Assembly: GCF_000230715.2 (NCBI RefSeq)
Contig: NC_019792.1
Location: 2,170,001-2,234,000, forward strand
Reading direction: 5' to 3'
DNA: 64,000 nucleotides
Source of the DNA: Natronobacterium gregoryi SP2
GTDB lineage: Archaea; Halobacteriota; Halobacteria; Halobacteriales; Natrialbaceae
Under the pieces are notes generated by a model. It was not told where the DNA came from and did not search any database. It saw nothing but the letters and a program-made list of their open reading frames with translations. Position numbers and translations under genes: made by a program. This document shows, one piece after another, positions 6,656 through 53,766 of this stretch. Each line of letters opens with the position of its first letter. Within the stretch, counting starts at the first letter, position 1.

Positions 6656-6732
6656 TCGAGTGAATCCATCCCGTCTCACCAGTGACCGAATCGGGATTCC
6701 TCGTCGACTCATACGGCTTGCTGTATTCAATT
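6656..6732. repeat. 77-bp direct repeat, copy 1 (edge of duplicated unit)
   Basis: This segment matches 7826-7902 with a single mismatch (T at 6697 versus C at 7867). It marks the left edge of a tandem duplication whose units each hold a ~112-residue gene and a divergent winged-helix gene. Confidence 0.85.
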
Positions 6733-6793
6733 ACCGCCGATTGCCAGAACGGGGTCGGCGATCGGCGGTAAATAGTTACAGCAATCCGTCTCA
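6709..6793. repeat. R1 palindromic repeat, copy with a distinct inner hairpin
   Basis: The left arm TCATACGGCTTGCTGTA and right arm TACAGCAATCCGTCTCA are near-inverted. The inner stem (TTACCGCCGATTGCC with GGCGATCGGCGGTAA) differs completely from that of other copies but still pairs. It shares its last TCA with the next copy, so two R1 units lie head to tail. Confidence 0.75.
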
Positions 6794-6877
6794 TACGGTT
6801 TGCTGTCTGTCAGTTCCGGCGCGTCCGCGAGTCCGCCTGCGGTCGCACCGGTACATCGGGACAGCAGCCCGTCTCAC
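6791..6877. repeat. R1 palindromic repeat copy
   Basis: The left arm TCATACGGTTTGCTGTC and right arm GACAGCAGCCCGTCTCA are near-inverted, with a GC-rich inner stem. The right end supplies the TGA stop (reverse strand, 6874-6876) of the adjacent gene. Confidence 0.8.
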
Positions 6878-7212
6878 TCGTCGATCTCGGGCCACTCGCT
6901 CGAGTCTCCCGGACGGTACGGAATCGTCGCCTCCGGTCCGTACAGCAGCAGTCCGAGCTGACTCGTCTCGGCCCTGATCTCTCGACAGCGACGTCGAGCC
7001 TCCCGGTGCGTCTCCTGAGAACGAGGTTTGCCCCCGATCTCCGCCGACGGGTCGTGGAGCCGCTCGAGCATCGCGTCCGTGAGTCGCTCGAGGGTCTCGA
7101 GGGCGTCACGGATCGAATTCACGTCGGCGGGGGGTCTAGGGGTATAGTTGTCTGGCGTCGGTACGTTCCGCCGGACGGGAGTTTTAGCATCCCGCGAATC
7201 GTCGTTCGACAT
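6874..7212 (-). CDS. small conserved protein of the duplicated two-gene module, copy 1
   Basis: 112 residues, no recognised domain. The N-terminus (SNDDSRDAKTP...) is variable and probably disordered. The middle is helical (LETLERLTDAMLERLHDP), then a basic helix (EARRRCREIRAE), ending LLLYGPEATIPYRPGD. From about residue 38 to the end it is identical to the paralogue at 7961-8296; a diverged third copy lies at 51550-51918. A winged-helix gene is divergent from it in all three places. Its stop codon is part of an R1 repeat. A role as partner or effector of the neighbouring regulator is inference. Confidence 0.7.
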   Translation of the reverse strand: MSNDDSRDAKTPVRRNVPTPDNYTPRPPADVNSIRDALETLERLTDAMLERLHDPSAEIGGKPRSQETHREARRRCREIRAETSQLGLLLYGPEATIPYRPGDSSEWPEIDE

Positions 7213-7339
7213 GGCTTCCAGGCTGGTTGCGGAAGCTTCTCGCGGACTCGGTGGTTAGGTCCCTGGGTCCGCGATTTTGCGACTCCACTACCGAGCGAGC
7301 CGCGCATAGCGTCCGTGTCAGGTGATAATGATCTGCTTT

Positions 7340-7386
7340 GATATAAATTCTACTACGAACGTAGTTTTTAGAGGACTACGTACGTT
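7340..7386. promoter_or_regulatory. TATA box and palindromic operator candidates of module copy 1
   Basis: GATATAAA (7340-7347) is followed at once by a perfect inverted repeat, ACTACGAACGTAGT (7352-7365), and a related palindrome, ACTACGTACGTT (7375-7386). The site lies between the two divergent genes and is AT-rich compared with its surroundings. It would suit autoregulation by the winged-helix protein. Confidence 0.45.
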
Positions 7387-7446
7387 ATTTGATCATCAGT
7401 GGATAGTACTGATTTTTCCGTTTTGCCGATCGGACATCGTAAATAG

Positions 7447-7713
7447 ATGGTTGAGCGGGTTCCCTGGATGGCTCCTGTCGACTACGAGATCATGCTTTTC
7501 TTCGACGAGCACGCGATACAGGTCTCTCCGCGAGTTCTCGCGGCGAACATCGGGTACGACCGCCAGTACGTGAGCAAACGCTGTCGGACCCTCTCGGAAG
7601 CAAGATTGCTGAACGCCGTCGACACTGGCCTGTATCAACTGACGGAAACCGGAGTGGCATATCTCGAGGGGGAACTCGATGCGGACGACCTCGAGAACGC
7701 CGAACCCGAGTAA
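7447..7713 (+). CDS. winged-helix DNA-binding protein of the two-gene module, copy 1
   Basis: 88 residues, about the size of a single winged-helix domain. WMAPVDYEIMLFFDEH is helix 1, ISPRVLAANIGYDRQYVSKRCRTL covers the recognition helix, and GLYQLTETGVAYLEGELD is the wing and last helix. The same frame (WM.P.D..IL ... Y.L...G.AYL.GE.D) occurs in the proteins at 8513 and 51061. It resembles the phage-repressor-like small wHTH proteins of haloarchaea. It is divergent from the 112-residue gene. Confidence 0.8.
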   Translation: MVERVPWMAPVDYEIMLFFDEHAIQVSPRVLAANIGYDRQYVSKRCRTLSEARLLNAVDTGLYQLTETGVAYLEGELDADDLENAEPE

Positions 7714-7792
7714 CGGCCCGGAGCTATCGCTATCGTTGCTATGCCGATTCGACCGTTAGAGCTGGTTTACCCTCCGATACTGTGCAGTTAGT

Positions 7793-7830
7793 TACCCGCC
7801 AGCGGAACGTCGACCGGAAGGTTCTTCGAG
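7793..7830. repeat. duplicated 3' tail of the flippase gene
   Basis: 38 bp match 8817-8854, the end of the flippase coding sequence (encoding NLPVDVPLAG), with one difference. The fragment stands alone here, downstream of the first winged-helix gene, and marks the junction of the tandem duplication. Confidence 0.8.
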
Positions 7831-7902
7831 TGAATCCATCCCGTCTCACCAGTGACCGAATCGGGACTCCTCGTCGACTCATACGGCTTGCTGTATTCAA
7901 TT
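7826..7902. repeat. 77-bp direct repeat, copy 2
   Basis: Copy of 6656-6732 with one mismatch. Its sequence runs directly into the R1 repeat, lacking the 82 bp (6733-6814) present in the first copy, as expected if two R1 left arms recombined. Confidence 0.85.
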
Positions 7903-7964
7903 CCGGCGCGTCCGCGAGTCCTCCTGCGGTCACACCGGTACATCGGGACAGCAGTCCGTCTCAC
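7879..7964. repeat. R1 palindromic repeat copy
   Basis: The arms TCATACGGCTTGCTGTA and GACAGCAGTCCGTCTCA flank a GC-rich inner stem. The right end again supplies the TGA stop of the adjacent minus-strand gene (7961-7963). Confidence 0.8.
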
Positions 7965-8296
7965 TCGTCGATCTCGGGCCACTCGCTCGAGTCTCCCGGA
8001 CGGTACGGAATCGTCGCCTCCGGTCCGTACAGCAGCAGTCCGAGCTGACTCGTCTCGGCCCTGATCTCTCGACAGCGACGTCGAGCCTCCCGGTGCGTCT
8101 CCTGAGAACGAGGTTTGCCCCCGATCTCCGCCGACGGGTCGTGGAGCCGCTCGAGCATCGCGTCCGTGAGCCGCTCGAGGGTCTCGAGAGCCGCACGGAT
8201 CGACTCGGTGTCGTCGAGCGGTGCGGACGTGTCCGCCGGCGTCGATGCGTCCTGTCGGACGGGAGTGTCGGTCTCCCGCGAGTCGTCGTTCGCCAT
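7961..8296 (-). CDS. small conserved protein of the two-gene module, copy 2
   Basis: 111 residues. The C-terminal ~75 residues equal those of the gene at 6874-7212, and about 210 bp of DNA are almost identical. The first ~35 residues share only MxNDDSR and scattered positions. This sharp step in conservation coincides with an unrelated-looking intergenic region and a diverged winged-helix partner. It shows no signal peptide or membrane segment. Confidence 0.7.
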   Translation of the reverse strand: MANDDSRETDTPVRQDASTPADTSAPLDDTESIRAALETLERLTDAMLERLHDPSAEIGGKPRSQETHREARRRCREIRAETSQLGLLLYGPEATIPYRPGDSSEWPEIDE

Positions 8297-8512
8297 GGTT
8301 TCCAGGGTGGACGGAAGCGTTTCGCGGACTGGATTTTGGCCGAGTCCTTTCGGAGCGTACGCGTTGTGCTTGCACTGTCGCTTCCGTATACGTCACCACA
8401 TCTTCAATGCACTTATAGACTAGCGTATTTATGCTAATACTGGATACGGGATGAGCTATTATATCCGGGGACCAGTCCAAATTAATGTTCGTCAGTGGGA
8501 CGACACCGTCGA

Positions 8513-15362: not shown

Positions 15363-15398
15363 TGGCAGTTACGTTGGCTTGAGTATTACTCTTTGATA

Positions 15399-15460
15399 CG
15401 GATTGCTGTGACGATTTACCGGTGCAACCGCTGTCCGGGCGCGGTTGTGTCGAAAATGAC
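15399..15460. repeat. R1-like repeat, left arm and inner hairpin only
   Basis: The sequence begins TGATACGGATTGCTGTGA and then GCAACCGC ... GCGGTTGT, an inner stem with its own sequence. A matching right arm is not recognisable. It lies in the divergent region between two ParB-fold paralogues. Confidence 0.5.
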
Positions 15461-15537
15461 ACACAGCCGACCGCACGAAGCAGTGGGGAGCCTCTGGGGC
15501 CGATATGTATTTGCGATTTGGTCCACCACCCACTTCC

Positions 15538-20651: not shown

Positions 20652-23423
20652 ATGAGTACCGAGACCGAACGCGTCGAGGACGGGACGGAGACGTCTCTCC
20701 TCGAGACGTGGGAAGACTGGTATCACCTCCCGATTCTGGGGGCTGTGATGCTGTTTATGTTCTGGGTGCGAACCCAGTCGTACGACAGGTTCGTCACCGA
20801 GGATGGAACGGCCGCTCTGGCTGGCGTCGACTCGTGGTACCACTGGCGGACCGTCCAGTGGACTGCCGAGAACTATCCGTCCACGATGCCCTACGAGATC
20901 TGGACGAGTTTTCCGACTGGCCGGTACGTCGGCCAGTTCGGGACGCTGTTCGACCAGCTCATCGTCACGGTCGCGATGATCGTCGGACTCGGTGATCCGT
21001 CGACCGAGACGCTATATATGGTCTCGCTGTTTGCCGTCCCGGCGATGGCTGCCCTCGTCGCGATTCCCGTGTTCTACGTGGGTCGGCGACTCGGCGGGAC
21101 GCTCGGCGGCATCGTCTCGGTCTTGCTTCTCGCTCTCGCGCCGGGACAGTTCCTCACCCGGACGACGGCGGGGCAACTCCAGCACCACGTCGCCGAGGTC
21201 CTGTTTATGGCGATCGCGGTGCTTGCGATGATGGTCGCACTTCGGGTCGCCGAGCGCGAACAGCCGATCTACGAACTCGTCGTCGACCGCGACTGGGAGA
21301 CGCTGCGGGAGCCGACGATCTACAGCGTTCTCGCGGGGATTGCACTCGCCCTGTACATCTGGGTGTGGCCGCCGGGGATCGTGTTGATCGGTATCCTCGC
21401 GGTGTTTTTCACGATCCAGCTCTGTCTCGACTACGTCCGAAACGTCTCGCCGGACCACGTCGCGTACGTCGGGGCAGTCAGTCTCGGCGTGACCGCTCTC
21501 ATCACGGCGCTTCTCATCGAGGAGCCGGGAACCAGCGTGACGAGTTTCGGCTACCTCCAGCCCGTCAGCGCGGCACTCGTTGCTGTCGGCTGTGTGTTCA
21601 TGGCCTGGCTCGCACGCCAGTGGAACGCTTCCGGGATCGACCGGCGGTACTATCCGGTCGCCATCGGTGGCCTCATCGTCGGGGCGTTCGCTGCGATGGC
21701 GGTCGTCCTTCCGGACCTCTACAGTACGTTCGTCGGTAACTTCACGAGTCGGGTGCTTCCGCTGGACCCGGGAACCGGTGCACAGACCATCCAGGAAGCA
21801 CAGCCACCGGGCGACTTCGGTGAGCACGTCTTCAGCGAGTTCGGTGCGGCCTTCTACACGATGGTCGCCGGGCTCGCGTTGCTCGTCGCCCGACCCTACC
21901 TGGGACGGGAGTATCGAACCGAGTACACGCTCGTCCTCGTCTGGTCGCTGTTCCTGATTAGTATGGCAGCGACCCAGGTCCGGTTCGCGTACTATCTCGT
22001 CTTGGCCGTCGCCGTCGTCAACGCAGTCTTCGTCGCGGAAGTCGTCCGCTTTTTCGACTTCGACGTCAGAGACGGCGTCGATTCTATCCGCCAGGTCGAG
22101 GCCTACCAGATCATCATCCTGCTCGTGGTCGCGATGTTGCTATTCGCACCGTTGCTCCCGCCGGTCGCTGCCGAGGGCACGACCGCGATGGATCGTGGCG
22201 AGATGGCCCAGCCACACCACGACGCGATGACCTGGGAGGACTCGAACCACTGGCTCCAAGAGAACACCCCCGAACCCGGTAACTGGGGTGACGCCGAGTA
22301 CGCCGACGAACTCGAGCTTTACGGCACCTACGAGTATCCCGAAGGCGAGAACTACGCCTACCCCGATGGGACCTACGGCGTTCTCTCCTGGTGGGACTAC
22401 GGCCACCTGATAACGACCCAGGCCGAACGGATTCCACACTCGAACCCGTTCCAGTCGGGTGCAACGTCGTCCTCGGAGTTCCTGACTGCCGAGTCCGAAG
22501 AACACGCAGAGCTCACGCTCGATGCGATCGCACTCGACGAGTCACCCGAGGACAGCTCTACCGACGAGCTCAGAGAACTCGTCGGCGACGCCGACCCCGA
22601 CGAGGAGATCCGGTACGTGATGATCGACGATGCGATGGTCGCCGGCAAGTTCAGTGCGATTGCCTCGTGGACGGAACCTGGTCCGGACCACTACACGACG
22701 CCGCCGGAGTTCGAGCCGACCGATCAGATCCCGCGCGACGAGATCCCACAGGAACTCAGCGACATGCCCTACTACGATACGGCTGTCGCACAACTGTACT
22801 TCGACGACGCGTCGGGAATGGAGCACTACCGGCTCGTCCACGAGAGCGACGCACAGCCGGAAGTACTCGTCAGCTACGCGATCGTCGATTCCGAAACCGA
22901 CAACGTCGTGGTCGACGACGGAGCCCCGCAGGTGTTTGTCAACCAAAACTACGCACAGGCACAGGCAGCTCTCAACTTCTACGACCAGCATCCGCAACTC
23001 GACTACGAAATCTTCGACGATCGACTCGTCTCACCCGTCAAGACCTACGAGCGCGTCGACGGCGCGACGCTTACTGGATCGGTCGACGATCTCGACGCCG
23101 ACCTCGACGATGACGCGACCGTGACCGCAGCCGTCGAACTCGACACCGGTGTCGACCGCGACGAGAGCGAAACACCGCTCTACGCGCAGGAAGCCGAACT
23201 CGAGGACGACGGTTCGTTCGAACTCACAGTGTCGTACGCGACGAACGACGAACTCGGCGTCGAAGACGGCTACACCGACAGTGCCGTCGAAACGGTCGAC
23301 GACTACGAGATCGTCGTCGAAACCGGCGGCGACACGTACGAGGCCCAGCAGGAAGTCCCCGAGACGGCAGTCGTCGAGGGTGAAACCCTCGAGGTCGAGT
23401 TCGAGTCGGCCGACGACGACTGA
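20652..23423 (+). CDS. aglB: oligosaccharyltransferase AglB
   Basis: 923 residues. AglB (STT3 family) transfers the lipid-linked glycan to Asn in N-X-S/T sequons on the outer face of the membrane. Visible: an N-terminal membrane domain of about 13 segments with the DxD-like GVDSWYHWR in the first outer loop, the catalytic-domain motif WWDYGH (residues 580-585), and a large acidic C-terminal domain carrying RYVMIDDAMVAGK. The ATG is preferred over a TTG 24 bp upstream. The TGA stop is the first base triplet of an R1 repeat. Confidence 0.95.
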   Translation: MSTETERVEDGTETSLLETWEDWYHLPILGAVMLFMFWVRTQSYDRFVTEDGTAALAGVDSWYHWRTVQWTAENYPSTMPYEIWTSFPTGRYVGQFGTLFDQLIVTVAMIVGLGDPSTETLYMVSLFAVPAMAALVAIPVFYVGRRLGGTLGGIVSVLLLALAPGQFLTRTTAGQLQHHVAEVLFMAIAVLAMMVALRVAEREQPIYELVVDRDWETLREPTIYSVLAGIALALYIWVWPPGIVLIGILAVFFTIQLCLDYVRNVSPDHVAYVGAVSLGVTALITALLIEEPGTSVTSFGYLQPVSAALVAVGCVFMAWLARQWNASGIDRRYYPVAIGGLIVGAFAAMAVVLPDLYSTFVGNFTSRVLPLDPGTGAQTIQEAQPPGDFGEHVFSEFGAAFYTMVAGLALLVARPYLGREYRTEYTLVLVWSLFLISMAATQVRFAYYLVLAVAVVNAVFVAEVVRFFDFDVRDGVDSIRQVEAYQIIILLVVAMLLFAPLLPPVAAEGTTAMDRGEMAQPHHDAMTWEDSNHWLQENTPEPGNWGDAEYADELELYGTYEYPEGENYAYPDGTYGVLSWWDYGHLITTQAERIPHSNPFQSGATSSSEFLTAESEEHAELTLDAIALDESPEDSSTDELRELVGDADPDEEIRYVMIDDAMVAGKFSAIASWTEPGPDHYTTPPEFEPTDQIPRDEIPQELSDMPYYDTAVAQLYFDDASGMEHYRLVHESDAQPEVLVSYAIVDSETDNVVVDDGAPQVFVNQNYAQAQAALNFYDQHPQLDYEIFDDRLVSPVKTYERVDGATLTGSVDDLDADLDDDATVTAAVELDTGVDRDESETPLYAQEAELEDDGSFELTVSYATNDELGVEDGYTDSAVETVDDYEIVVETGGDTYEAQQEVPETAVVEGETLEVEFESADDD

Positions 23424-23507
23424 GACGGTTTGCTGTCAGTCAGTTCCGGCGCAGCCGCGAGCCATCCTGCGGGTGGGCCGGTACATCGGGACAGCAGTCC
23501 GTCTGAG
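23421..23507. repeat. R1 palindromic repeat abutting aglB
   Basis: It begins TGAGACGGTTTGCTGTC, whose TGA is the aglB stop, and ends GACAGCAGTCCGTCTGA. The outer stem pairs over about 15 bp with two mismatches. The inner stem is imperfect in this copy. Confidence 0.85.
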
Positions 23508-24189
23508 ACGAGATGTATGCTGACTCCCGTAAACTGGCGGCGTTCGTGGTTGCGAACTTGAAACGCCCACCGCTGAGCGGAATCGACGATGCCGCGATGC
23601 TCGAAACTCTTTGCTTCCCATCCGCTCGGGAGTCCTCCGCGTTCACGCGGAGAAACATGCCAATTTCGGTCATTTTCGCTGTCTCTACGCTCGAGGTAGA
23701 CACATCGGGAACTCGAGACAGCACTCCGTTTGAGACGCTCTCGTGTACTCGTGTGGTGCAGTCACGAGCGGCGTCGCGGTCGTGTCGTTACTGACCGCCA
23801 GTGTCTGTGGACAGTTCACTACGACGTCTAGTATCGTCCCAAGTCTACTCTGACTAGTGCACTCCACTTCTGATCGAGAATCGTGATCGGTTTGGGCCAA
23901 CTCTCAACTAGTCGGTCCACACTTGGGACAGTACTAGCTGGTCGACCCGGAGTCTCTCTCTTTTCGGGTGGATCGCTGTCTGGCCTGTCGACACAGCCGT
24001 CGCCGTTGTGCTGACGTGGTCGTCATACGGGTTGGTGGGAGTCGTTTCCGGTGCGACCGCGAACTCTCCTGCGGTCGCGCCGGGACAGCGGGACAGCAGT
24101 CCGTATCAGGGTCGAGACGGAACGTCGCTCGAGTGTGTTGTCACCTGCTGTGCCGGGTTCCCGCCCACCGCCTCGTATGAACATAAAAA
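23424..24189. other. 766-bp stretch with no convincing gene
   Basis: The stretch lies between aglB and the IS1595 element. It contains most of the R1 copy at 23421, a degraded right-half R1 around 23701-23737 (CACATCGGGAACTCGAGACAGCACTCCGTTTGA) and a full R1 at 24023. Short open frames here lack haloarchaeal codon bias. Confidence 0.6.
24023..24109. repeat. R1 palindromic repeat with a strong inner stem
   Basis: The arms are TCATACGGGTTGGTGGG and GACAGCAGTCCGTATCA. The inner stem CCGGTGCGACCGC / GCGGTCGCGCCGG pairs at 12 of 13 positions. No gene end coincides with it. Confidence 0.8.
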
Positions 24190-25203
24190 GAAAATCGCTC
24201 TTCTGTAGGAGATTGTTGATACTGCTCAGCTGTCGCTGTAGAATCGAAGAGAGCAAGGACACCGCGTCAGCGGTGTCCGTTAGGCATGATCCCGCTAGAT
24301 GTGTTTGGGTCGGAATCGGTCGCAGCGGACCTGTTAGAGCAGGTTCGCTGGCGTAACGGTGTTACTTGCCCTCGCTGCCGTTCTGACCTGACGGTCAAGA
24401 ACGGTAGCTATGGGCACTTTCAGCGCTATCTCTGTAAGAATTGCGACCGCACGTTCAACGACAAGACCGGCACAATCTTCGCCCATTCGAAAGTCGCACT
24501 CAGAAAGTGGCTGTTCTCGATTTACGCGTTTCTCCGGTTTAACACGAGTCTTCGTCAACTTCAGATAGAGATCGACGTCCAGTACAAAACGATCTATCAG
24601 CGCGTCGAGCGCTTCACGAAGGCGCTTGATGCACCTTCGCTTGACCTTGTCGGACCGGTCGAAATCGATGAAGTCTACGTTTCTGCAGGGCTGAAAGGCC
24701 GCGAGCGCGACCAAGAGTCGCGCTCGCGTGGCCTGTCCACGCGTGGGCGAGGAACGTACGAGCAGGACAAACCGCCGGTGTTCACGATCGTCGATCGTGG
24801 CACCGGCGACCGATACGTGATCCCAGCGAAATCAGCCGACGAATCGACGATTCGGCTCCTTCTCGAAAACCGTCAGAAGGAGCCACTGACCGTCTACACT
24901 GACGGATTTCGTGCCTACGATCCACTGGCCGAGGACGACGCATTCGACCGCGAATACGTCGTCCACGGCGACGGCGAATACGCCAACGAAAACGTACACG
25001 TCAACACCTGCGAGAGCCACGGATCGCTGCTGCGACCGTGGCTCTCGCCTCATCGAGGCATCTCAAAAGACAAGCTCACACAGTATCTCCGAGCGTTCCA
25101 ACTTCGACGAAAGCTACTGCGGAAACCAGGGAGAGAAGCGCTCAAACACGCTATCAAAGCGACGCTATGAGATCAACAAAGTGCTACACAAGAGCGAAGA
25201 AAA
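24190..25203 (+). mobile_element. IS1595-family (ISH4-like) insertion sequence
   Basis: One transposase gene is flanked by imperfect inverted repeats: GAAAATCGCTCTTCTGTAGGA at 24190-24210 and the complement of TGCTACACAAGAGCGAAGAAA at 25182-25202. A clean 8-bp target duplication could not be identified, so the ends are approximate. The right end lies about 120 bp upstream of the first S-layer promoter. Confidence 0.75.
24286..25170 (+). CDS. IS1595-family transposase
   Basis: 294 residues and apparently intact. An N-terminal zinc ribbon (CPRCRSD ... CKNCDRTF) is followed by a helix-turn-helix segment and a DDE-type catalytic domain: VEIDEVYV, VYTDGFRAY, then HVNTCESHGSLLRPWLSPHRGISKDKL as expected for the ISXO2-like N-(E/K) part. 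It catalyses cut-and-paste or copy transposition of the element. No frameshift was seen. Confidence 0.88.
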   Translation: MIPLDVFGSESVAADLLEQVRWRNGVTCPRCRSDLTVKNGSYGHFQRYLCKNCDRTFNDKTGTIFAHSKVALRKWLFSIYAFLRFNTSLRQLQIEIDVQYKTIYQRVERFTKALDAPSLDLVGPVEIDEVYVSAGLKGRERDQESRSRGLSTRGRGTYEQDKPPVFTIVDRGTGDRYVIPAKSADESTIRLLLENRQKEPLTVYTDGFRAYDPLAEDDAFDREYVVHGDGEYANENVHVNTCESHGSLLRPWLSPHRGISKDKLTQYLRAFQLRRKLLRKPGREALKHAIKATL

Positions 25204-40283: not shown

Positions 40284-40302
40284 GCGGCTGGATAGACCAG
40301 TA

Positions 40303-40341
40303 CGGTCGCGTCGGGACATCGGGACAGCAGTCCGTCTCAGT
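40303..40341. repeat. R1 repeat, right half
   Basis: GTCGGGACATCGGGACAGCAGTCCGTCTCA is the right arm of R1 with little of the left arm. Its end supplies the TGA stop (reverse strand, 40337-40339) of the GNAT gene. Confidence 0.7.
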
Positions 40342-41431
40342 CGGTCACTTCCAGAAACGAGACGCGCCAGTTGTCACGCGCCGTCAGTTCGTTCCGTGAA
40401 ACCGGCGGCGTCTCGCCGTCGCGCTCGAGCGGACGCACCGCAAGGTACGTCGGATCGGCAACGCGGGAGAGGATCGGGTTCCGGTAGCGGACGAACCCGA
40501 ACTCGTTCAGCAACGTCGGGGGGAGAACGTCGTTGGCGACAGTCATCACTGCGGCCGACTCGTTGTCGGCGACGGCCGCCGAGAGCAACTCGGGAAACGC
40601 CTCGTGGTCGCCGGTCGCCGGGAGGGCGTCCATGAGCTTGACAGCTCGCCCGGTCTCGGTTCTCGTGACCAGCGCGGCGACTGGACGGTCGTCACACCGC
40701 GCCACGTACACCGTATGGTCGTAGTTCGGTGCGTCCAAAACCCACCGGTAGAAACGGGCGTCGCGGTAGACGTGCAGCCGGTCGGGAACGTGAGACTCGT
40801 ACAGCGACTCGAGAACGGCGGCCGGAGCCGACGAGTGACGGTCGATATCGAACCGGTCCGGCGTCGTCGCGAGACGGTCTCTGGCGGTGAGATACGCCCG
40901 CGACAGCGCAGTGAGCGGTCGCTCGAGCGACGCGGGAACGGCGTCGTCGGACAGGAACTCGTGTGGCCGCTGCAGCCGATACTGCATGGGAACGACGTCG
41001 ACCGCCCGCCAGCCGAGTTTCTCCTGGGCACCCAGCGACGCGTCGTTCGGGAAGTTGAAGAAAAACGCTGGCTCTCGGTCGCGGTACGTTTCGATCGCTT
41101 TCCTCGTAACCCTGGAGTACAAGCCTTTTCGGCGGTGGTCCGGGTGAACGAGTGCGTCGACTGGCTTGAGCGCGGGGACGACTTCGTCCCGGCACCGAAC
41201 GGGATAGGGAAGATACCCCTGGGCTGCGACGACCTCGCCGTCGCGTTCGGCGAGCGTGATCGGGACGTGAGAGAGTGAGGGGGTCTCGACGTACTTCCAC
41301 TCGAACCAGTCGGTTCCCGACCGATGCTCCCACGCCGTTTCGAACAGCGACAGGACGCTCTCGCGGTCACCGTCCGCGTATCGTCTGACGACGTACTCGT
41401 CGGTCTGGTCGCGAGCGACACTACGTGACAT
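40337..41431 (-). CDS. GNAT-family N-acetyltransferase
   Basis: 364 residues. The N-terminal GNAT domain has YVVRRYADGDRESVLSLFETAW, a first conserved strand (VVAAQGYLPYPV) and the acetyl-CoA loop ALVHPDHRRKGLYSRVTRKAIE (motif A, near residues 90-115). The C-terminal half resembles a second GNAT-like lobe, as in several haloarchaeal two-lobe acetyltransferases. The substrate is unknown. Its stop codon lies in an R1 repeat. Confidence 0.8.
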   Translation of the reverse strand: MSRSVARDQTDEYVVRRYADGDRESVLSLFETAWEHRSGTDWFEWKYVETPSLSHVPITLAERDGEVVAAQGYLPYPVRCRDEVVPALKPVDALVHPDHRRKGLYSRVTRKAIETYRDREPAFFFNFPNDASLGAQEKLGWRAVDVVPMQYRLQRPHEFLSDDAVPASLERPLTALSRAYLTARDRLATTPDRFDIDRHSSAPAAVLESLYESHVPDRLHVYRDARFYRWVLDAPNYDHTVYVARCDDRPVAALVTRTETGRAVKLMDALPATGDHEAFPELLSAAVADNESAAVMTVANDVLPPTLLNEFGFVRYRNPILSRVADPTYLAVRPLERDGETPPVSRNELTARDNWRVSFLEVTD

Positions 41432-43436: not shown

Positions 43437-44609
43437 CGACGCGACCGACACGGACGACACGACCTCGAATCGGCCTCTCGAGCGGGCGCTCGGCCGTGCC
43501 TGGCGCGACGCCCGTTCTTGGGGCCTGCCGACCGAACTAACTCAGCCTCCCCCAGAGGGGTGGCTCCGAACACGAGCGCCGAGTGGCGGAACTCGTCGCC
43601 AACACGGTCGCGGATGCTGGCCTCGAGAACGTCGGAAAGCGGGAGTCCCGATGCAACACTGACAGCGCGGCCACACCGAATTCACTGTCTACCGTGAGGA
43701 CGGCCCCGATCGTCCGTTCGCGGCGAGTGCACTCCCGTACTCGCCGTCCGGCGACGTGGAGGCGGCTGGTCGACGCCGGCTACGGGACGCCCGAAGAGAT
43801 CGCAGCGGCCGACCTCGAGGGAGCGATCGCCGGCGAGGCGGCCGTTCCGGGGATCGGCGTCAGCGCCGAGACAGGTGACTGGCTCGTCGAGTACGCCGAG
43901 GGGAGCACTCGCACACGAATCCAGGTCGTGGTGACGACCAACGCGGGCTCGAGCCGGAACGTCACCGGCACGATCGGTCCCGACACCGACGAGGAAGTGG
44001 TGGTGGTCGCTCACTACGACAGCCACGACGTCGCCGAAAGTGCGCTCGACAACGGCTGTGGGATCGCGACGGTCGCGGATGCAGCGTCGATCCTCTCGAC
44101 GGTTGCGAGCGAACTCGACTGTCGGGTCCGGTTCGCCGGCGTCAACTGCGAGGAGATCGGGCTGCTCGGTGCGGAGGCGCTGGCCGGCGACCTCGCCCTC
44201 GAGTCGATCCGTGCGGTGGTCAACGTCGACGGTGCGGGCCGGTTCCGGAACCGCGTGGCGATGACTCGTACGGTTTGTTGTCAGTCAGTTCCACCGCGAC
44301 CGCGGGCAGGCTCGCGGTCGCGCCGGGACAGCGGGACAGCAGTCCGTATCACTGCAACTGCACAGCAATCCACCCGTAGGCGGCGATTGCGGGCGTGGCT
44401 GGGGCCACACCGCGGCCGACACACGCGACACGGTCGACCCGCGAAATCTGCGGGAACACGCCATGTTGACGGCACTGCTAGTGCTCGAGTTGATAGACGA
44501 GCCGATCCTCCGGGTCGACGCAGCGAAACTCCGGAAACAGTTCCGAGAGTAGGACTACGAGCCGGAGATGTGGGCCTCGAGGATCTGGCCCGAGGGCTGG
44601 GACAGCTAG
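43437..44609 (+). pseudogene. decayed M28-family aminopeptidase with an R1 repeat in place of its middle
   Basis: Pieces of a haloarchaeal M28 peptidase are in order but in different frames. They are RRVAELVANTVADAGLENVGKRE (about 43567-43641), FAASALPYSPSGDVEA, LVDAGYGTPEEIAAADLEG, then a long stretch with the metal-binding VVVAHYDSHDVAESALDNGCGIATV and NCEEIGLLGAEALAGDL. After VVNVDGAGRF the frame meets an R1 repeat (44265-44351). Coding resumes at GRGWGHTAADTRDTVDPRNLREHAM, with a TAG before DYEPEMWA. The HPFSDHW-type segment expected between is absent. At least two frameshifts, one stop and one replacement make it non-functional. Confidence 0.85.
44265..44351. repeat. R1 palindromic repeat inside the M28 pseudogene
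   Basis: Arms TCGTACGGTTTGTTGTC and GACAGCAGTCCGTATCA flank a perfect 10-bp inner stem (CGCGACCGCG / CGCGGTCGCG). It interrupts the peptidase homology. Confidence 0.85.
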
Positions 44610-49635: not shown

Positions 49636-49720
49636 TGAGACGGTTTGCTGTCAGTCAGTGCCGGCGGGCCCGCGAGCCCGCCTGGGGTCGCGCCGGGACG
49701 GCGGGACAGCAGTCCGGATA
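49636..49720. repeat. R1 palindromic repeat copy
   Basis: Arms TGAGACGGTTTGCTGTC and GACAGCAGTCCGGATAG, with a partly degenerate inner stem. It lies in the divergent region between the DCC-family gene and the PD-(D/E)XK-like gene. Confidence 0.8.
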
Positions 49721-53545: not shown

Positions 53546-53766
53546 TCCGGGACTCCGGTACGGATCACTGTGCCGACTCCTGGTACGACCACGTCGGGTC
53601 GCAGGTGCGTCGGAACCGACCGACATAAACCGTCTGGGTCGTTGTTCGGCACCGGTACGTCGGCTTCGGCCGGACGGACTCGCGCCTTCCCTGTCTCGTC
53701 GGTCTAGTCACGAAGCACCGCCGCTGAACCTAAAGGGGCGAATATGAAGGCGGTTCGTCCGGAGTG

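Follow-up and report, generated by a model that had tools for sequence, protein, structure and literature searches.

Gene ends at a short repeat in the aglB region

The stop codon of aglB in Natronobacterium gregoryi SP2 directly abuts a short repeat, here called R1, and the question raised by this locus is why a gene and a repeat should share a boundary to the exact triplet. The window considered here is the whole 64,000-nt stretch of DNA around aglB (64 kb), bases 2,170,001-2,234,000 of the contig, and unprefixed positions refer to it. A preliminary description of this DNA had reported four such coincidences between R1 ends and stop codons, at 23421, 6874, 7961 and 40337. All four are present in the sequence, and independent gene calls agree with all four gene ends (Table 1). 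At 6874, 7961 and 40337 the shared triplet is a TCA that comes after ...CCGTC and forms the TGA of a minus-strand gene.

Because a tandem duplication of a small gene (300 nt, 97%; region 6700-8310) accounts for both the 6874 and the 7961 locus, R1 ends included, the window holds three independent cases and not four, and the copy at 40337 is half an R1. The left arm of the copy at 7883 resembles the 6713 element and its right arm the 6795 element; it is probably a recombinant of that pair. Relatives of aglB in named genomes belong to Natrialbaceae, for example Halopiger, Natrialba and Natronorubrum.

Table 1. Coordinates of aglB, R1 copies and their flanking triplets in the window (TSD, target-site duplication)
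Feature	Position	Strand	Remarks
aglB (STT3/AglB oligosaccharyltransferase)	20652..23423	+	Pfam AglB_core-like, STT3, AglB_L1; C-terminus ...SADDD, GAC-TGA
Left TSD TGA = aglB stop codon	23421..23423	+	directly before KACGG of R1
R1 core downstream of aglB, 78 bp, ACGG...CCGT	23425..23502	+	73.8 bits over nhmmer model positions 1-78; each strand forms one hairpin, z about -5
Right TSD TGA of the aglB R1	23504..23506	+	
R1-type element, first of a pair having TCA 6791-6793 in common	6713..6789	+	
R1 copy; right TSD TCA 6874-6876 = TGA of minus-strand gene 6874-7212	6795..6872	+	
R1 copy; right TSD TCA 7961-7963 = TGA of minus-strand gene 7961-8296	7883..7959	+	
Divergent R1 copy	15398..15473	-	nhmmer
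R1 copy, TCA/TCA duplication, away from any stop codon	24027..24104	+	
Right half of R1 copy (model positions 44-78)	40301..40335	+	TCA 40337-40339 = TGA of GNAT acetyltransferase gene 40337-41431 (-)
R1 copy with TCA on the right and a decayed left flank, TCG	44270..44347	+	
R1 copy	49640..49716	+	nhmmer
Weak, decayed R1-like copy	53560..53633	-	nhmmer

Form, copy number and distribution of R1

R1 is a 78-bp imperfect palindrome with the ends KACGG...CCGTM, the core ACGG...CCGT and terminal inverted repeats (KACGGWWTGCTGT...ACAGCANNCCGTM). Copies are mostly 74-78 bp long, too small for an open reading frame and hence non-coding, and each strand folds as a single long hairpin (z -5.0 and -5.4). 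A 16-base end motif occurs 352 times in the genome, compared with a single occurrence of the reversed control. These features fit a non-autonomous transposable element of the MITE type.

A profile of the repeat (nhmmer HMM) was built from 30 copies. The first sample (864 kb) combined the 64-kb window with 40 stretches of 20 kb at even spacing and contained 104 copies, with both ends placeable in 96; a further 20 stretches made up the held-out sample. Together the two samples cover 1.26 Mb of the 3.79-Mb single-contig genome and hold 153 dispersed copies; extrapolation to the whole genome gives roughly 460 copies, and about 150 genes whose stop codon bears R1. Matches to R1 were found in 78 of 125 genomes of the family, representing 20 of 29 genera, and also on a plasmid of Halomicrobium urmianum. 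A scan of the 64-kb window against Rfam gave no match.

The flanking triplet is a duplicated target

The triplets directly outside R1 were identical in 48 of the 96 first-sample copies (25 TCA/TCA, 22 TGA/TGA and one TTA/TTA), and for TCA and TGA this amounts to 47 concordant pairs and no discordant one. The agreement is specific to this spacing, as all other offsets gave only 0-14 matching copies. Concordance held in the held-out sample (21 pairs against one TCA/TGA mix), bringing both samples combined to 68 same-triplet copies and one mix, and in a genome of another genus (G057; 15 concordant, one discordant). About half of the R1 copies no longer have identical flanking triplets, a loss that is attributed to decay.

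A nested case provides an empty site. One R1-type copy (L070:6103-6180) lies inside another R1, and when the flanks of the inserted copy are joined via one TCA, the resulting sequence matches many uninterrupted R1 copies over its whole length. The concordance of TCA or TGA on both sides, taken together with this empty site, indicates that the triplet belongs to the target and not to R1. The proposal that R1 inserts at 3' ends carrying TGA was therefore right in substance, the TGA or TCA being the duplicated target. From the flanks of copies not at stops, the target motif is the palindrome CGWC-TSA-GWCG, and its left half-site is the codon GAC followed by TGA.

Stop codons are overrepresented among R1 sites

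The coincidence with stop codons is beyond chance throughout the genome, as had been surmised from the window. Of the 96 first-sample copies, 33 have a called stop as the exact flanking triplet, whereas stops make up 293 of the 4218 non-coding TCA/TGA sites (6.9%, p=4e-15); L065:11845 (TAA) and a few low-score rows among these 33 are probably noise in end assignment. The held-out stretches gave 16 of 43 against a background of 7.2% (p=2e-8), and the second genus (G057) gave 14 of 29 against 7.1% (p=2.5e-9). Over the combined 1.26 Mb, a gene stop forms the duplicated triplet at 49 of 139 copies, compared with about 7% expected. Direction is uniform: all 63 coinciding genes read into R1 and none of the 63 reads outward. 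The same exact end is found in deposited annotation, where the R1 match begins with the stop triplet of a coding sequence on plasmids of Natrinema thermotolerans and Halomontanus rarus; at three other plasmid copies examined, no annotated coding sequence ended at that triplet.

The codon before the stop has a large effect. R1 occupies 25 of 83 GAC-TGA stops in this genome (30%) and 22 of 522 other TGA stops (4%; odds ratio 9.8, p=1e-11). Since GAC-TGA is the exact left half-site of the target, these stops are hot spots for R1. The share is weaker in G057 (4 of 26 GAC-TGA stops, 10 of 160 others), so that the codon effect is established in N. gregoryi and only suggested in the second genus.

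When non-coding sites were weighted by the motif, the expected share at stops rose from 7% to 15%, whereas 40% of the copies with a target-site duplication were observed there (27 of 68). Compared with sites 1-100 nt downstream, 27 copies lay at stops against 15 at those sites, which is 64% observed versus 39% expected (p=0.0014). The residual excess at stops over nearby 3' sites after motif weighting is about 1.6-fold, so that target motif and survival together may not fully account for the bias. An imperfect motif model, selective loss of insertions elsewhere or a true preference for 3' ends may each contribute.

Protein ends in relatives without R1

The gene ending at L042:11599 has the same TGA without R1 in three genomes of the same genus (G080, G081 and G082) and a TAA at that place in a fourth, G083. 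The genes ending at L044:9798 and L042:9381 likewise keep their TGA without R1 in G083. The nearest ortholog of aglB, also from G083 (83%), ends ...EVDFGELDGEN-TGA compared with ...EVEFESADDD-TGA here, that is, within one codon, and the DNA after its TGA is unrelated. More distant aglB orthologs have longer acidic tails, which the nearest ortholog does not share. The protein encoded at 7961 has the same end residue in G083, where its stop is TAG, and the acetyltransferase at 40337 ends ...RVSFLEVTD, compared with ...RLSFLEVKD in a 60% homolog from G122.

As relatives free of R1 keep the same protein ends, R1 has not truncated these genes, and sequence comparison supports native ends at all six gene loci tested. 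The reading that the repeat supplies stop codons, tempting as it is, is thereby corrected. The preliminary description had named two observations that would speak jointly against its account of the coincidences: orthologues with the same protein ends but unrelated downstream DNA, and copies without any genome-wide bias to stop codons. The former was found, with unrelated DNA following aglB in the nearest ortholog, but the latter was not, the bias being strong.

At the stop shared with the L042:9381/9383 gene, a decayed R1-like sequence is present in G082:C167 (stretch L155). This is either an old shared insertion or one site used repeatedly.

Proposed mechanism and alternatives

R1 is very probably a MITE-type element whose coincidence with stop codons results from target choice and survival rather than from truncation. 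A putative transposase supplied in trans would cut the palindromic CGWC-TSA-GWCG and duplicate the central TSA (TCA or TGA) on both sides; it could be a DDE enzyme. The 3-bp TNA-type duplication resembles that of the IS1031 group of the IS5 family. Most targets within genes would then be lost to selection because insertion destroys the gene. The harmless target within a gene would be a TGA stop codon, where the left duplicate would stay an in-frame TGA. At the six gene loci the left triplet is indeed still an in-frame TGA after insertion, and the protein is therefore unchanged. Acidic haloarchaeal proteins would offer such sites readily, as they often end in GAC-TGA, the left half-site. Target duplication also means that the exact register with stops needs no function.

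On this mechanism, a gene-dense genome can carry hundreds of mobile insertions without losing genes, for the target triplet is the stop codon itself and is copied, and the R1-bearing genes become predictable as those ending in GAC-TGA. A broader reading, which we put forward only tentatively, is that R1 is a family-wide mini-transposon with a target tuned to acidic GAC-TGA ends, which would make stop codons a self-renewing safe harbour; copying of the stop would place a second TGA downstream of the first, together with a hairpin, on an extrapolated 150 or so mRNAs per genome, and 3' UTRs could be shaped by this as a secondary effect.

Active targeting of gene 3' ends beyond the TSA motif, by DNA structure, paused polymerase or supercoiling between convergent genes, would explain why the excess at stops persists after motif weighting, both overall and against the next 100 nt. 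We nevertheless regard it as unlikely, given that most of the effect tracks the GAC-TGA sequence, that a position-independent weight matrix built on 41 sites is likely to understate how strong real sites are, and that sites 1-50 nt past stops, which lie in the same 3' environment, show little enrichment (0.67% per weighted site, against 0.52% at >200 nt). More doubtful still is the idea, raised in the preliminary description, that the hairpin is kept as a bidirectional transcript terminator or mRNA stabiliser. A long hairpin on both strands, and genes that always read into it, would suit such a role. Archaeal terminators, however, are T-rich, and no run of five T or A occurs within any of 139 R1 copies; nor does a T5 follow within 60 nt of R1 at any of the 49 genes concerned, compared with 44 of 1117 cases after other stops. 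Conservation and folding are no better in copies at stops than in other copies (p=0.86 for the HMM score, p=0.23 for folding), and the register is already accounted for by the duplicated target. The lack of a T-tract and of better conservation at stops leaves the terminator role unsupported, and from the sequence an RNA role for R1 is possible but unsupported. R1 does offer a ready test of whether mobile elements come to form archaeal mRNA 3' ends.

That R1 would carry its own stop codon and truncate genes, a further suggestion of the preliminary description, is very improbable and was wrong where tested. Gene ends lie exactly at the R1 border, but the long acidic tails of distant aglB orthologs are missing from the nearest ortholog too, the triplet is target DNA that agrees as TCA or TGA on both sides, and R1-free orthologs end at the same residue or at most one codon off, contradicting truncation at six gene loci. 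Chance or a gene-calling artefact, which the small number of cases within the window, one pair being a duplicate, might have suggested, is hardly credible in view of the three samples (p between 1e-8 and 1e-15), identical ends in deposited annotations and the absence of any coincidence in the wrong direction. The preliminary description is thus partly supported: its observation is correct genome-wide, but none of its three readings is the best one.

Relation to known elements

REP and BIME sequences are short palindromic repeats found at bacterial gene 3' ends in hundreds of copies; REPs are linked with RAYT enzymes of the IS200/IS605-like kind and do not duplicate their target. R1 is like REP/BIME in its palindromic form, its place at gene 3' ends and its copy number, and unlike them in having a target duplication. 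It also differs from PATE/IS605-related elements, which have neither terminal inverted repeats nor target duplication, whereas R1 has both.

Among haloarchaeal elements, the MITE families of Haloquadratum walsbyi are short and non-coding, have terminal inverted repeats, target duplication and many copies, and are moved by a transposase in trans (PMC3119063). R1 shares all of these features, the trans transposase being putative in its case, and is set apart by its far shorter length (78 bp), its fixed TSA duplication, its location on stop codons and the lack of an identified parent. SMR-A of Haloquadratum makes no target duplication and targets PATE/IS605 palindromes (PMC3119063). R1 is similar to SMR-A, which is about 100 bp long with prominent inverted repeats, a high copy number and no known parent, but has a 3-bp target duplication that SMRs do not. 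The IS1031 group of the IS5 family inserts at TNA and produces direct repeats of 3 bp exclusively, and ISLrh itself went into TGA (PMC12016507). The 3-bp TNA duplication of R1 (TCA, TGA and once TTA) agrees with this group, whereas the terminal repeats differ; an IS1031-type transposase bounded by R1 ends was not found here, so the link is by target type only. A stop-codon MITE precedent was not found in the open-access literature.

Pairs of R1 ends spaced 0.1-3.5 kb apart were sought across the sampled stretches, about a third of the genome, and none of them enclosed a convincing autonomous element. One 1162-bp candidate in L135 proved to be a chance pairing with an unrelated insertion sequence inside an R1 copy. 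This DDE_Tnp_1 element (L135, about 1057-2124) has an 8-bp duplication (TAAACCGT), which makes R1 itself a target. PF13586 is absent from this genome; PF01609 has 47 matches, and the two IS groups examined both have ends other than those of R1. The missing parent element lowers the claim of lineage, not that of mechanism.

Neighbouring and nested repeats

A second short element (TAGGGAGTATCG...CGATAATCCCTA) lies inside an R1 copy at L212:3685-3797 with TGA on both sides, and its ends also adjoin R1 copies in L013 and L019. It is probably a sister MITE that obeys the same rule for its target. Downstream of aglB, the window contains a repeat of about 110 bp (23828-23937) with at least 20 other copies in the genome at 93-100% identity, followed by an IS1595-family insertion sequence of about 1.0 kb (24196-25196), whose many genome copies at 99-100% identity point to a recently active element. 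A repeat of about 175 bp (L065:15617-15791) directly adjoins an R1 copy, occurs at least 12 more times (91-98% identity) and possibly forms a composite with R1.
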